64,000 nt of DNA from Bacillus sp. THAF10 (GTDB lineage: Bacteria > Bacillota > Bacilli > Bacillales > Bacillaceae_I), in NCBI RefSeq assembly GCF_009363695.1, contig NZ_CP045403.1, positions 1,778,001 through 1,842,000 of the forward strand. The letters are read 5' to 3'. The translations under genes were made by a program, and so were the position numbers. The notes under the pieces were generated by a model. The model saw only the letters and a program-made list of their open reading frames with translations. It made no database searches and was not told the DNA's origin. This document shows, piece after piece, positions 1 to 4,818 of the stretch. Within the stretch, counting starts at the first letter, position 1, and each line of letters begins with the position of its first letter.

Positions 1-1
1 G

Positions 2-500
2 ATTGAGGAAATCAAGCCAATAAAAGATGATCTATACACACCAAAAATCGAAGGTGCCGATGATGAGATTCGTGATATGAGCTATTCTATGGCTAGAAGA
101 ATTTACGGAGACAACTTGCCTGAGATTGTGGAAAAACGAATTGAAAAGGAACTAAAAAGTATTATCGGACATGGGTTTGCCGTTATTTATCTAATTTCTC
201 ATAAGCTTGTTAAGAAATCTCTAGATGATGGCTATCTGGTAGGGTCTCGAGGGTCTGTTGGATCGTCTTTTGTTGCCACCATGACAGAGATTACGGAAGT
301 AAACCCATTGCCTCCACATTATGTGTGTCCATCCTGCCAGCATTCGGAGTTTTTTGATGATGGTTCGGTAGGCTCAGGGTTCGATTTGCCTGATAAAGAT
401 TGCCCTAAATGTGGCGAAGCGTTTAAAAAAGATGGCCACGATATCCCCTTTGAGACCTTCCTTGGCTTTAAAGGAGATAAGGTGCCGGATATTGATTTGA
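2..500 (+). CDS. polC: DNA polymerase III PolC, upstream exon (partial)
   Basis: PolC is the essential replicative DNA polymerase of Firmicutes. The reading frame is open from base 2, so the gene begins before the window. This part resembles the B. subtilis PolC stretch from EEIKPIKDD to PDIDL and includes [10 protein letters not shown] and a zinc-type Cys pattern (CPSC near 327, CPKC near 405). The exon stops at base 500 after the first base of an Asn codon. Joining base 500 to base 3169 restores PDIDLNFSGEYQ, the polymerase catalytic motif with its two Asp residues. Without splicing the frame would run only five residues into the intron and stop at 517. Identification is certain by recall of the family; the split itself is seen directly. 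Confidence 0.97.
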
Positions 501-1234
501 GTGCGACACGTTCTTAACTGAAAAGGTTAAGCACTAGCATTGTCTAGTAGAACTGCTATTCCAATGTGTGGAATGATGGGGTAACGTCCTGAAACACACA
601 CACTAAAGCTACGGCAAGCGAATGCGATAATGCAAACATCAACATCGTTTGAAGCCCGTTAAAGTAGGCTGAAGTTCACCCTAACATTTTAGGATGAGGA
701 AAGGGAGATATTAATCTTCTGTGAATGATAGGTCTGGTGTCTATAAAATTCCTATGGTTAGAATCAGTAAAATCACTGGGACGAACCCTCGATTGACTTT
801 TCGTGAATGTCACGCAGCAGAAATGTTGTGGGGTCCTAAGAGGACTTCTGAGTGTGGATGAGTAAGCGTTTGGTTATGAAAATCCATCCTGTGTTACAGG
901 CACAGGCAAGCTCAGCGGAATTTAGGGGGAACCTAAGGGAATAAAATAAAGATAGGAATAGTGGAACGTGTGAAGCTCCTGACGTAAGAGAAGGTTGCAC
1001 TTCTATGACAATGGTGTATGGAAAGGCGTATAGCTATAACATACTTTACAGGAGTGGCAGTAGTGCCGTAGTACTGTTGAAGAAATGCTGATGATGACTG
1101 AATAACAAATAGGTCGGAGGATAAAACATTTCAGAGGGAAGGGCACAAGTCGTTAACGTCGAAACAAAAACCTACAAAAAGTCAGATTCGCGTATGACTA
1201 AAGAAAAACGAAAGCTTCATAAGGAAGTGATTAG

Positions 1235-3061
1235 TTGGCTGACTTAATGATTCAAAAGCTAAGAAACAACGAATATTTTGGCTTACAATCAACTTTTGAT
1301 AATCTTTATGAGGAAAGCAAAAAGGGTCGATATTTTAAAAACATTTTTCAGCTTATTATTTCTGAAGAGAACATTCAATTAGCCTTTCGAAACATAAAAA
1401 GTAATATTGGGAGCAAAACGAAAGGTACGAACGGTCACACAATAAAACATCTTAATAAAATAGATGCTCTCAAGCTGATTGGATTAACAAAAAAGAGACT
1501 GGATAACTATAATCCACATGCAGTAAGGCGTGTGCTAATACCAAAGCCTAACGGAACAATGAGACCTTTAGGAATTCCAACAATTGAGGACAGATTAATA
1601 CAACAAATGTTTTTACAGGTTCTTGAGCCGATTGTTGAAGGTAAGTTTCATTCGCAGAGCTATGGTTTTAGACCAAAAAGAAGCACTCATGATGCTTTAG
1701 CAAGGTGCTATCATATGGTCAATCACAGTCATCAACATTTTGTGGTGGATATAGATATTAAAGGTTTCTTCGATAATGTCAATCATAAAAAGCTAATGAG
1801 GCAACTATGGACAATAGGAATACGGGACAAAAAAGTTTTATCTATCATCAAAATGATGCTAAAGGCAGAAATAAAGGGTAAAGGTATACCTGTTAAAGGA
1901 ACTCCTCAAGGCGGCATATTATCCCCATTACTAGCCAATGTGGTGTTAAACGAACTTGACTGGTGGATTTCAAATCAATGGGAAACAAAGCCAACAAGAG
2001 TTCCATATAAATTGAAACGTAATAAAACGGACGCTCTTAAAAAGACAAAGTTAAAACCAATGTATCTAGTAAGATATGCAGATGATTTTAAAATCTTCAC
2101 GAATTCCTACTCTAATGCTAGGAAGATTAAAATGGCTGTAGAGAAATGGCTCAGAGAAAGATTAGGCCTTGAAATTAGTGAAGATAAAAGCAAAATCACT
2201 AACTTACGCAAAAACGGTACAGACTTTTTAGGAGTACGGTTTAGAGCGGTTCGCAAAGGAAATGCCAAAACAGGTTATATTGTAAACTCAAAAATGGACC
2301 CCAAGGCAAAAGAGAAGGTATTAGGTGTTATTCGCCACCAGCTCATAAAGATGAGAAAAAGTCCCACTCCAGAAAAAGTGATGAATTTCAATGCCAACAT
2401 CCTCGGTTTACACAACTATTACAAAGTTGCAACGAGGATAGCTCAAGAATTTAATGAGATACGACATAAAATTCATCGGAATATTAAATCGTTGATGTTT
2501 AGAAATATTTTTATTTACACAAAGGAAACGAATAACATCATTGATAAATTCTATGGAGATTACAATTGTCAAAGATTTAAAAGTAATGGATTACTGGTCT
2601 ATCCTATTGAAGCAATTCGACATGATATACGAGGTCAAAGAGACCCTAACTTCTCTGTTTATAAGAAAAAGGATAGGGCATCAATTCATAAGTTAATTAA
2701 GAATGTGTCTGTTCGTGAAATTGAAATGTTTCGTAAAGGAATATTTAAAGCTAAAAGTGTTTTGTACGAAAATAACCGTTTGAGTAAATATGTAGCTCAA
2801 AAAGGTTGCTGTGGTATTACAGGAGAACGACTGACTCCCCACAATGCCATATGTCACCATATAAGATCTACAGCTCAAGGCGGAAAAGATGACTATGAAA
2901 ACTTGATGATAATAAACAAGAAATATCATATGATTATTCATAATAAAGACCCACTTTTAAATAATGATTATAAAAAAATATTAGCCAAGTTTGAAACGAA
3001 GGCCTTAAACAAATTAAACAAGCTAAGAACGGAAGTAGGAAATCCAAAACTTAGCTTCTAA
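1235..3061 (+). CDS. ltrA: Group II intron-encoded reverse transcriptase/maturase with HNH endonuclease
   Basis: This 608-residue protein helps its host intron to splice and to move by retrohoming. The reverse transcriptase domain spans roughly residues 60-340 and carries the catalytic YADD at 281-284, plus the PKPNGTMRPLGIP, YGFRPKRST and GTPQGGILSP blocks. A maturase (X) region follows near residues 370-430 (NANILGLHNYYK). The C-terminal HNH endonuclease spans about 525-570, with Cys525/Cys526 and CHHI. The TTG start at 1235 follows AAGGAAGTG; ATG 1247 is the alternative. All expected domains are present and the ORF is uninterrupted, so it looks functional. The symbol ltrA is used for the family. 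Confidence 0.95.
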   Translation: MADLMIQKLRNNEYFGLQSTFDNLYEESKKGRYFKNIFQLIISEENIQLAFRNIKSNIGSKTKGTNGHTIKHLNKIDALKLIGLTKKRLDNYNPHAVRRVLIPKPNGTMRPLGIPTIEDRLIQQMFLQVLEPIVEGKFHSQSYGFRPKRSTHDALARCYHMVNHSHQHFVVDIDIKGFFDNVNHKKLMRQLWTIGIRDKKVLSIIKMMLKAEIKGKGIPVKGTPQGGILSPLLANVVLNELDWWISNQWETKPTRVPYKLKRNKTDALKKTKLKPMYLVRYADDFKIFTNSYSNARKIKMAVEKWLRERLGLEISEDKSKITNLRKNGTDFLGVRFRAVRKGNAKTGYIVNSKMDPKAKEKVLGVIRHQLIKMRKSPTPEKVMNFNANILGLHNYYKVATRIAQEFNEIRHKIHRNIKSLMFRNIFIYTKETNNIIDKFYGDYNCQRFKSNGLLVYPIEAIRHDIRGQRDPNFSVYKKKDRASIHKLIKNVSVREIEMFRKGIFKAKSVLYENNRLSKYVAQKGCCGITGERLTPHNAICHHIRSTAQGGKDDYENLMIINKKYHMIIHNKDPLLNNDYKKILAKFETKALNKLNKLRTEVGNPKLSF

Positions 3062-3082
3062 ACTTCGACAATGTTAACGATG

Positions 3083-3121
3083 GAACGCCGTATGACTCCG
3101 AAAGGGTCACGTACGGTGTGG
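3083..3121 (+). ncRNA. Group II intron domain V catalytic hairpin
   Basis: Domain V is the most conserved part of the ribozyme. The lower stem ACGCCGT pairs with ACGGTGT, including one G-U pair. A small internal bulge follows, then an upper stem GACTC/GGGTC capped by a GAAA-type loop. The catalytic triad reads CGC in the lower stem rather than the more frequent AGC. It begins 22 nt after the maturase stop codon, the usual place. Confidence 0.88.
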
Positions 3122-3168
3122 AGTGGGGGAAAAGCCAGAGATAATTTCAAAGGCTTACCTATCACTAT

Positions 3169-4574
3169 ATTTTTCTGGTGAATATCAGCCTAGGGCCCAT
3201 AATTACACGAAGGTACTCTTTGGGGAAGAGTATGTATTCCGTGCAGGTACCATTGGTACGGTTGCTGATAAGACTGCCTACGGGTATGTCAAGGGCTATG
3301 CCAATGACCGCAACTTAATTTTAAGAGGTGCTGAAATTGATCGTCTTTCCTCCGGCTGTACAGGAGTGAAAAGAACTACAGGACAGCATCCTGGTGGTAT
3401 TATCGTTGTTCCTGATTATATGGATATATTTGATTTTTCACCGATTCAGTATCCCGCGGATGATCAGAGCTCAGAATGGAAGACGACCCATTTTGATTTT
3501 CACTCTATCCATGATAATTTGTTAAAGCTTGATATACTTGGGCATGATGATCCAACTGTTATTAGAATGCTGCAGGATTTAAGTGGAATTGATCCGAAGA
3601 CGATCCCAACCGACGACCCTGAGGTAATGAAAATATTTAGCGGAACAGCATCACTTGGCGTAACAGAAGAACAGATCATGTGTAAAACAGGGACTCTAGG
3701 TATTCCGGAGTTTGGAACAAGGTTTGTTCGCCAGATGCTTGAGGATACGAAGCCGTCTACCTTCTCTGAATTAGTTCAAATTTCTGGACTATCTCACGGT
3801 ACAGATGTATGGCTTGGAAATGCACAAGAGCTTATTCATAACAAAACGTGTACATTAAGTGAAGTAATTGGCTGTCGTGATGATATTATGGTTTATCTAA
3901 TTTATAAAGGGCTTGAGCCGTCTATGGCGTTTAAAATCATGGAATCTGTCCGAAAAGGAAAAGGACTCTCAGACGAGTTTAAGGAAGAAATGATTAAGAA
4001 TGATGTTCCACCGTGGTACATTGATTCATGTTTAAAGATCAAATATATGTTCCCTAAGGCTCATGCTGCTGCTTATGTTTTGATGGCCGTTCGGATTGCC
4101 TATTTTAAAGTGCATTTCCCACTGATGTATTATGCGGCTTATTTTACCGTCCGAGCAGATGATTTTGATGTGGACAATATGGTCAAAGGTTCCGCTGCGA
4201 TTAGGAAAAAGGTGGAGGAAATAAATGCAAAAGGTTTAGATGCAGCACCAAAGGAAAAATCCTTGCTTACTGTACTAGAACTTGCGCTGGAAATGACCGA
4301 ACGTGGCTTTAGCTTTCAAAAAGTAGATTTGTATAAATCGAGTGCAACGGACTTTATTATTGAAGGAAACAGTCTAATACCTCCTTTCAACTCCATACCT
4401 GGACTCGGCACGAACGCAGCACTTAATATTGTGAAAGCAAGAGAGGATGGTGAATTCCTTTCTAAAGAAGACTTGCAGCAACGAGGTCGCATATCAAAAA
4501 CAATTCTAGAATATTTAGATAATCATGGTTGTCTCACAGGCCTTCCAGATCAAAATCAATTGTCGTTATTTTAG
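3169..4574 (+). CDS. polC: DNA polymerase III PolC, downstream exon
   Basis: The second exon begins with the last two bases of the split Asn codon (A|AT) and continues [18 protein letters not shown]. It encodes the rest of the palm, the fingers and the C-terminal region of PolC, ending in QLSLF, a typical beta-clamp-binding tail at the PolC C terminus. Motifs close to B. subtilis PolC include [21 protein letters not shown] and [18 protein letters not shown]. There is no frameshift. Two terminator-like hairpins follow before rimP. The open frame extends upstream into the intron (to 3123), but that part is not coding in the spliced message. Confidence 0.97.
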
Positions 4575-4687
4575 AAAACACATGATAGAATCCTTATGTG
4601 AAGCATGATGATAATTAGAAAGATTTGCATATTGTTTGGGGATATGATATATTGACATTGGAAATGCTATATACAAGTAACTAGCAG

Positions 4688-4710
4688 AGAGTGGGGCAAC
4701 CCACTCTTTC
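4688..4710 (+). terminator. Hairpin after polC
   Basis: The stem AGAGTGGG/CCCACTCT closes a GCAA loop and is followed by a short T-rich stretch (TTC). The weak T-tract suggests partial termination or attenuation ahead of rimP-nusA. Confidence 0.6.
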
Positions 4711-4792
4711 GTATTGTATGCTCAGCTTTCTTTTGGCTTCTTGTCTTGTTTAGTTTACGCAGCAGTTGTACATAGCTTGCTTGTTTAAGATG

Positions 4793-4818
4793 CCCTGCTT
4801 TTTAGCAGGGTCTTTTGT
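4793..4818 (+). terminator. Second hairpin between polC and rimP
   Basis: The stem CCCTGCT/AGCAGGG is followed by TCTTTTGTT. It sits 50 nt before the rimP start and could act as an intrinsic terminator or attenuator for the nusA operon. Confidence 0.65.

Follow-up and report, generated by a model that had tools for sequence, protein, structure and literature searches.

The window analyzed here, a 64,000-nt stretch of the Bacillus sp. THAF10 genome (contig NZ_CP045403.1, positions 1,778,001 to 1,842,000), begins within polC, the gene of the replicative polymerase PolC. In this single-contig, 4.09-Mb genome, polC is split by a group II intron of 2,668 nt at window positions 501–3168. The junction falls after the first base of the Asn codon in the PDIDLNF motif, the two Asp residues of PDID being, we presume, the catalytic ones. 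Exon 1 ends at 500 (..GATATTGATTTGA), exon 2 starts at 3169 (ATTTTTCTGG), and the joined exons read PDIDLNFSGEYQP across the splice site. A first-pass annotation had placed the junction one base into the Asn codon of PDIDLNFSG and held that joining 500 to 3169 restores the frame, and both statements are correct to the base: together with the upstream part of the gene (stretch L012) the joined frame is open for 1,478 codons from stop to stop, and the two pieces of PolC adjoin at position 976 of the NF001688 profile. Read without splicing, the frame meets a stop at 515–517, and PolC would end five residues beyond the Leu of PDIDL. The features of the locus are as follows (EBS, exon-binding site; IBS, intron-binding site; D1–D6, intron domains 1–6; IEP, intron-encoded protein; RT, reverse transcriptase).

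1–500, plus strand: 3' part of polC exon 1, the gene start lying upstream of the window (NF001688/TIGR01405)
488–493, plus strand: IBS2, GATATT, exon positions -13 to -8; 6 of 6 pairs with EBS2, one of them G.U
495–500, plus strand: IBS1, ATTTGA, exon positions -6 to -1; 5 of 6 pairs with EBS1 (2 Watson-Crick, 3 wobble, 1 U.U)
501–3168, plus strand: group II intron, 2,668 nt, GTGCG...CTAT (boundaries and Rfam matches; the same base in 29 polC genes)
548–747, plus strand: 5' ribozyme part, RF02004 (D1–D4 model), 153.1 bits
806–811, plus strand: EBS2 guide, AATGTC (complementarity scan)
869–874, plus strand: EBS1 guide, TTTGGT, directly 5' of TATGAAA (register by homology)
1235–3061, plus strand: IEP of 608 aa, RT and maturase, with a TTG start (TIGR04416; YADD present)
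1538–2242, plus strand: RT domain RVT_1, residues 102–336 (E 4.3e-42)
2807–2944, plus strand: HNH-type endonuclease-like stretch, residues 525–570 (20.7 bits, sub-threshold)
3085–3119, plus strand: domain 5 hairpin, catalytic by homology (RF00029 and fold)
3122–3168, plus strand: domain 6 with the unpaired A3161, a likely branch point by its fold
3169–4574, plus strand: polC exon 2 through the stop codon (profile matches)

The intron termini are GTGCG at 501 and CTAT ending at 3168, and a GTGYG start with an AT end, as expected at group II boundaries, recurs in 29 of 29 polC introns described below. The Rfam model RF02004 matches the D1–D4 core with an E-value of 7.8e-35, and the D5/D6 model RF00029 covers 3083–3168 (52.1 bits, E 4.4e-8), its match stopping precisely where the 3' splice site is proposed. 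For this D5/D6 part the predicted folding energy is -31.7 kcal/mol (z -4.4), a value reached by none of 200 shuffled sequences. The predicted fold of domain 6 leaves A3161, 8 nt before the intron 3' end, unpaired, and this residue is the likely branch point. The IEP reading frame scores 357 bits against the group II RT/maturase profile TIGR04416 (cut-off 300); its HNH match is weak, slightly below the Pfam cut-off of 21.4 bits. Judged by its boundaries, its D1–D4 core and D5/D6, its EBS1 and EBS2 guides and its IEP, the insert is a group II intron.

The interrupted gene is the only polC of the strain. A whole-genome profile search finds the sole full PolC as a pair of matches to positions 2–742 and 740–1211 of TIGR01405, and no second PolC in the 4.09 Mb; the other matches are one dnaE and short, exonuclease-like partial ones. 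Nor was an uninterrupted PDIDLNF-type polC motif found in this genome. The first-pass annotation had named a second intact polC as one of two findings that would overturn its view that DNA replication depends on this intron; with the search returning none, replication in the strain would depend on splicing of the polC intron.

The same annotation had proposed searching Bacillaceae polC genes for introns at the same base, and such introns turn out to recur in Bacillales. A degenerate junction pattern run over the genome_contigs collection returned 33 stretches, among them 16 polC and 3 dnaE genes that carry a group II intron at the PDID base; the other 14 gave no group II match at gathering score and were dropped. 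On viral contigs, the one match of the pattern reached only a chance-level profile score. Whole-genome searches in the family of L. mangiferihumi added seven polC introns (matches in 20 of 261 genomes, a minimum because introns with a variant 5' end are missed by the pattern). Four further polC introns have variant 5' ends and one was recognized as a split PolC, which with the window brings the total to 29 polC introns at the identical base. Joining the exons restores the frame in all 29, each reading PDIDLNFSG. Across the 397 genomes surveyed in the window's order, polC is interrupted in 8, the motif is uninterrupted in 370 and PolC is contiguous in 17 more, while two are unscored (G214, without a match, and G218, with polC broken over contigs); none of the 8 interrupted genomes also carries an uninterrupted motif. 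The arrangement had been called rare, which holds for its frequency in the order but not for the event, which is recurrent and moves between genera. One genome with an interrupted polC (G226) has a second intron-like insert in the same gene (L235, 1400–2479, minus strand, 1,080 nt) after codon base 1 at FPK/AHAAAY, with an RF00029 match of 55 bits; the open frames seen in it are all short.

Guide sequences complementary to the polC target are present in the intron. EBS2 was located by scanning all alignment columns and offsets over the first 700 nt of 18 introns with different targets, where the top column gave a matched score of 0.65 against 0.35; a scan limited to the first 330 nt had yielded nothing convincing. 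In the window, EBS2 corresponds to intron nucleotides 306–311 and EBS1 to 369–374, the EBS1 register being set by homology with introns that pair EBS1 at 6 of 6 positions. An alternative EBS1 in a TGCAAA loop was rejected, as this loop is common to dnaE introns with different IBS1. The window's guides pair at 11 of 12 positions, and across 25 target clusters guides pair with their own targets at 93% of positions (lowest 73%), compared with 45% for swapped targets. These counts exclude the introns of L. macroides and L216 (no EBS1 by pattern), that of G044 and the second G226 intron.

The loss of the intron protein in many copies is a point that the first-pass annotation did not raise. Among the 29 polC introns the IEP is open and full-length (607–608 aa) in 13, broken in 5 (Domibacillus antri, L. 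xylanilyticus, G456, G345 and G193, the last with an internal stop) and deleted in 11, so that 16 have a broken or deleted IEP. The introns with a deleted IEP measure 767–1,674 nt, those of L. mangiferihumi, Metasolibacillus meyeri, C. latum and C. tenue falling between 767 and 909 nt. An apparent open frame of 2,332 aa across the G345 intron is not real, as it contains 41 stops when read. Changes of IEP state number nine on the ribozyme tree, at least eight of them on well-supported branches, and eight on the polC tree, at least five of them so supported. The ribozyme is conserved: for introns found by the junction pattern, RF02004 scores are 145.3–150.8 bits in six with a deleted IEP and 150.3–156.6 bits in eight with an intact one. 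Boundaries, guides, D5/D6 and the reading frame are likewise kept in the protein-less copies.

Fourfold-degenerate sites of the 11 open full-length IEP introns compared are more similar in the IEP than in polC in 54 of 55 pairs, the remaining pair being tied (0.43). Kurthia gibsonii and K. huakuii are identical at 192 of 192 IEP fourfold sites, while their polC identity is 0.40; for the window and Priestia abyssalis the values are 0.68 and 0.29. Identity of the ribozyme relative to third codon positions was set aside as a test of transfer, the ribozyme being under constraint, and the IEP fourfold sites were used instead. Trees of the ribozyme and of the polC exons conflict: the polC tree unites the genus Kurthia in a single clade (100/100) which the ribozyme tree rejects (p 0.00014), and the same is true of Metasolibacillus (full support; p 6.5e-5) and of a seven-row Lysinibacillus-like group (full support; p 0.0066), outside of which L. 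antri falls in both trees. Given the conflict of the trees and the excess of IEP over polC identity in Kurthia, the intron is, by these comparisons, spreading horizontally between genera.

Within genomes the intron does not appear to multiply. Its 5' end in the window is matched in 18 of 20 genomes examined, and 17 of these have a single full-length intron match (77–100%), at the polC site. The match in the 18th (dnaE, Scybalomonas) and all extra full-length intron matches stay below 70%, a value exceeded only by short partial matches. With one full-length match at the polC site per genome, the intron resembles a homing element specific to its site more than one that multiplies. No vector was found: every IEP in the best 5,000 plasmid records and in all 82 phage records that matched is <60% identical. 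The nearest proteins to the window's IEP include one 90% identical over its full length (P0002, Bacillus mycoides) and one 91% identical over 32% of the query (P0022, B. cereus). One other group II-type RT frame is found in the window's genome (631 aa, L144, G000:C1:2863125-2864198), 39% identical over part of its length. In Kurthia huakuii two introns with identical guides (L133 and L134) lie in what we take to be a hydrolase-like gene and in the VDEYQD motif of a presumably AddA-like gene, where they pair at 9 of 11 and 10 of 11 positions, an apparent ectopic copy. Downstream of polC in the window, two terminator-like hairpins (4686–4709 and 4792–4811) separate it from genes which we take to be rimP-nusA-like.

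The observations to be accounted for are the place of the intron, the complementarity of its guides, its horizontal spread, the repeated loss of the IEP with a conserved ribozyme, and the single polC of the window's genome. From the sequence comparisons we think it very probable that an RT/maturase group II intron seated in the catalytic motif of PolC excises from the mRNA and so restores PolC, likely spreads by retrohoming to polC genes that are still uninterrupted and, in polC, decays to a splicing-only form. The spliced lariat and the IEP would recognize the target through the EBS2-IBS2 and EBS1-IBS1 pairings and protein contacts, and the lariat would reverse-splice into the PDIDLNF motif after the first base of its Asn codon. 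Because only exact removal leaves polC functional, the insertion would then be locked in; after fixation the IEP gene would be free to decay while the ribozyme is retained. Several points weigh against this account. In polC and dnaE-PDID introns the EBS2 register, chosen by fit, differs by two bases from that of the other introns. The EBS1-IBS1 pairing is weak in polC introns, with a mean of 2.5 Watson-Crick pairs of 6 (27 introns) compared with 4.5 in 38 other coding introns, and a U.U at -3 is common; this weakness is either genuine or the result of a small error in the EBS1 register. Lost and intact IEPs do not cluster on the ribozyme tree beyond chance (198 of 500 shuffles were as low), draft errors might account for small breaks of the IEP frame, though less readily for the 11 large deletions, and the G564 copy, whose open frame led to its being scored as intact, has no HH[IVL] string in the HNH stretch.

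One could dispense with splicing altogether if PolC were made as two separate chains, the second started within the intron at the GTG at 3123, given that in the window the frame of exon 2 extends 25 codons into the intron without a stop and includes a GTG. Such a start would be unavailable in 9 of the 29 introns, where the open part contains neither ATG nor GTG nor TTG, and this makes two chains highly improbable; nor would they need the boundaries, guides and domains 5 and 6 that are kept in protein-less copies. The insertion could instead be recent, deleterious or dead, with another polymerase replacing PolC: all 14 other genus members in the 397-genome sample have an uninterrupted polC motif, and a separate dnaE exists. 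PolC is essential in B. subtilis, however, the exon frames are open around an intact IEP in the window, and same-site introns persist in 29 genomes, including the close relatives G558, G564 and G568 (polC exons 93–94% identical, introns 95–96%); in view of this persistence, the open frames and the single polC, a dead insertion is extremely unlikely. A possible, if doubtful, objection concerns the splicing-only state itself, as copies without an IEP might be spliced in trans by a related maturase encoded elsewhere. IEPs of approximately 47% identity do occur elsewhere in the genomes of four protein-less hosts (Metasolibacillus meyeri, L. mangiferihumi, C. latum and Metalysinibacillus jejuensis), and others of 44–47% in G345 and G193; the search covered the protein-less hosts other than G438, G456, G459, G558 and G568. 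By contrast, in the draft genome of Caryophanon tenue (L075) neither an IEP match, in the intron or elsewhere, nor an RVT_1 match was found, an RVT_1 search of the D. antri draft finds only pieces of its own broken IEP, and the L. macroides draft holds only distant RTs. According to a review, ORF-less bacterial introns (without an open reading frame) nearly always coexist with related IEPs (PMC4424553).

Introns related to that of polC target conserved motifs of other genes. Among others, they interrupt dnaE at PDID(I/V)/D (the base homologous to that in polC), pcrA/uvrD-like genes at VDEYQD, recJ-like genes at YGDYDA, gyrB/parE-like genes at DADVDG.., dnaE at YQEQI and a conjugation-type gene at DPKG, the gene names being our assignments from translated motifs. 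The earlier suggestion that a highly conserved motif makes a good homing target gains strength from the dnaE, pcrA-like and recJ-like cases. Three of these groups comprise the following loci.

L146, L182, L187, L191, L195, L207: pcrA-like, helicase motif VDEYQD
L121, L123, L127, L138, L147: recJ-like, DHH motif YGDYDA
L208, L211: GyrB/ParE-like, DADVDG motif (gene name from the motif)

The IEPs of these relatives are mostly 40–55% identical to that of the window or of the dnaE intron, and down to 26% (L146). The recJ-like L138 has no IEP match and may be another protein-less copy. Of the 79 introns for which guides were extracted, a phase-1 frame is open over 150 nt in 65, and the other 14 received no assignment. 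The 65 fall into 25 coding target clusters (defined by terminal octapeptides, some perhaps of the same gene family), and in all 25 the insertion follows codon base 1; a second frame is also open in two related introns, and in none is another phase the only open one.

The guides also differ in how they pair with the three codon positions. At exon T and G bases in the seven core-gene clusters, wobble and Watson-Crick pairs stand at 19:4 in third codon positions and 6:21 elsewhere (p 4e-5), and in the 18 other clusters at 18:17 and 4:53 (p 2e-6); the cells of these tables are not independent, and both the wobble idea and the split into core and other clusters are post hoc. This excess might be passive, the guides being fixed and the exons drifting to synonymous bases that still pair, with no selection for tolerant guides. 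Drift predicts the same excess, which extends to the 18 other clusters, and accounts for it as well as selection does. Against it, most guide bases that face third positions in the core clusters are G or U, the exceptions being A at -8 (polC, dnaE and one pcrA-like intron), at -11 (two polC introns) and at -2 (one pcrA-like), and C at -2 (one recJ-like) and -11 (gyrB/parE-like), and we hold passive drift and its opposite to be evenly balanced. Inteins prefer conserved motifs. We would give an even chance to the broader proposal that this intron clade is specialized, in an intein-like manner, on catalytic motifs of replication and repair genes, with phase-1 entry and guides that tolerate synonymous change, and that in polC it has repeatedly turned into an RT-less intron that is obligatory and splicing-only, one or more of its hosts having no maturase in the assembly, thereby following the organellar path in free-living bacteria.

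A group II intron was reportedly described by Chee and Takami in 2005 in recA of Geobacillus kaustophilus, likewise a housekeeping gene of DNA metabolism in a member of Bacillaceae, though a different gene from polC. According to published reviews, bacterial group II introns reside mostly outside housekeeping genes (PMC4424553, PMC3522654), and ORF-less ones are rare, C.te.I1 of Clostridium tetani being the one independent case known as of 2015 (PMC4424553, PMC3919590). Like the C. tenue copy, C.te.I1 has no IEP and resides in a genome without a related one; it occupies a surface-layer protein locus and is alternatively spliced, whereas the polC intron sits in an essential gene for which one joined mRNA is expected (PMC3919590). 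Ll.LtrB of Lactococcus lactis shares guide-based target choice and an IEP with the polC intron; it lies in a plasmid relaxase gene, the expression of which is lowered by attack on the spliced mRNA, a loss that should be costly in polC, where the guides are weak (PMC6003770). Organellar group II introns also occupy housekeeping genes and are often splicing-only after IEP loss, but are eukaryotic and use host splicing factors, whereas polC introns are bacterial and transfer between genera (PMC4424553). The inteins of DnaE and DnaB are splicing elements in replication genes as well, based on protein splicing and homing endonucleases instead of an RNA enzyme and a reverse transcriptase (PMC4853749). 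No title or abstract among the matches listed deals with a group II intron in polC, pcrA or recJ; an earlier mention is possible, most subscription journals being outside the search. An essential site used at the same base across genera, the repeated loss of the protein and a phase-1, motif-centred set of targets appear to be new.

The polC introns represent a natural bacterial series from a mobile retroelement to a splicing-only intron, present in cultured species. In at least 29 genomes a replicase gene is interrupted at the same base, in contrast with the avoidance of housekeeping genes described in the reviews. The series also sharpens the question of Qu et al. (2018), how an essential mRNA escapes attack by its own intron. 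Such re-attack on spliced mRNA is described for Ll.LtrB (PMC6003770), and we speculate by analogy that the weak EBS1 pairing may spare the spliced polC mRNA from it, which would be one possible answer.

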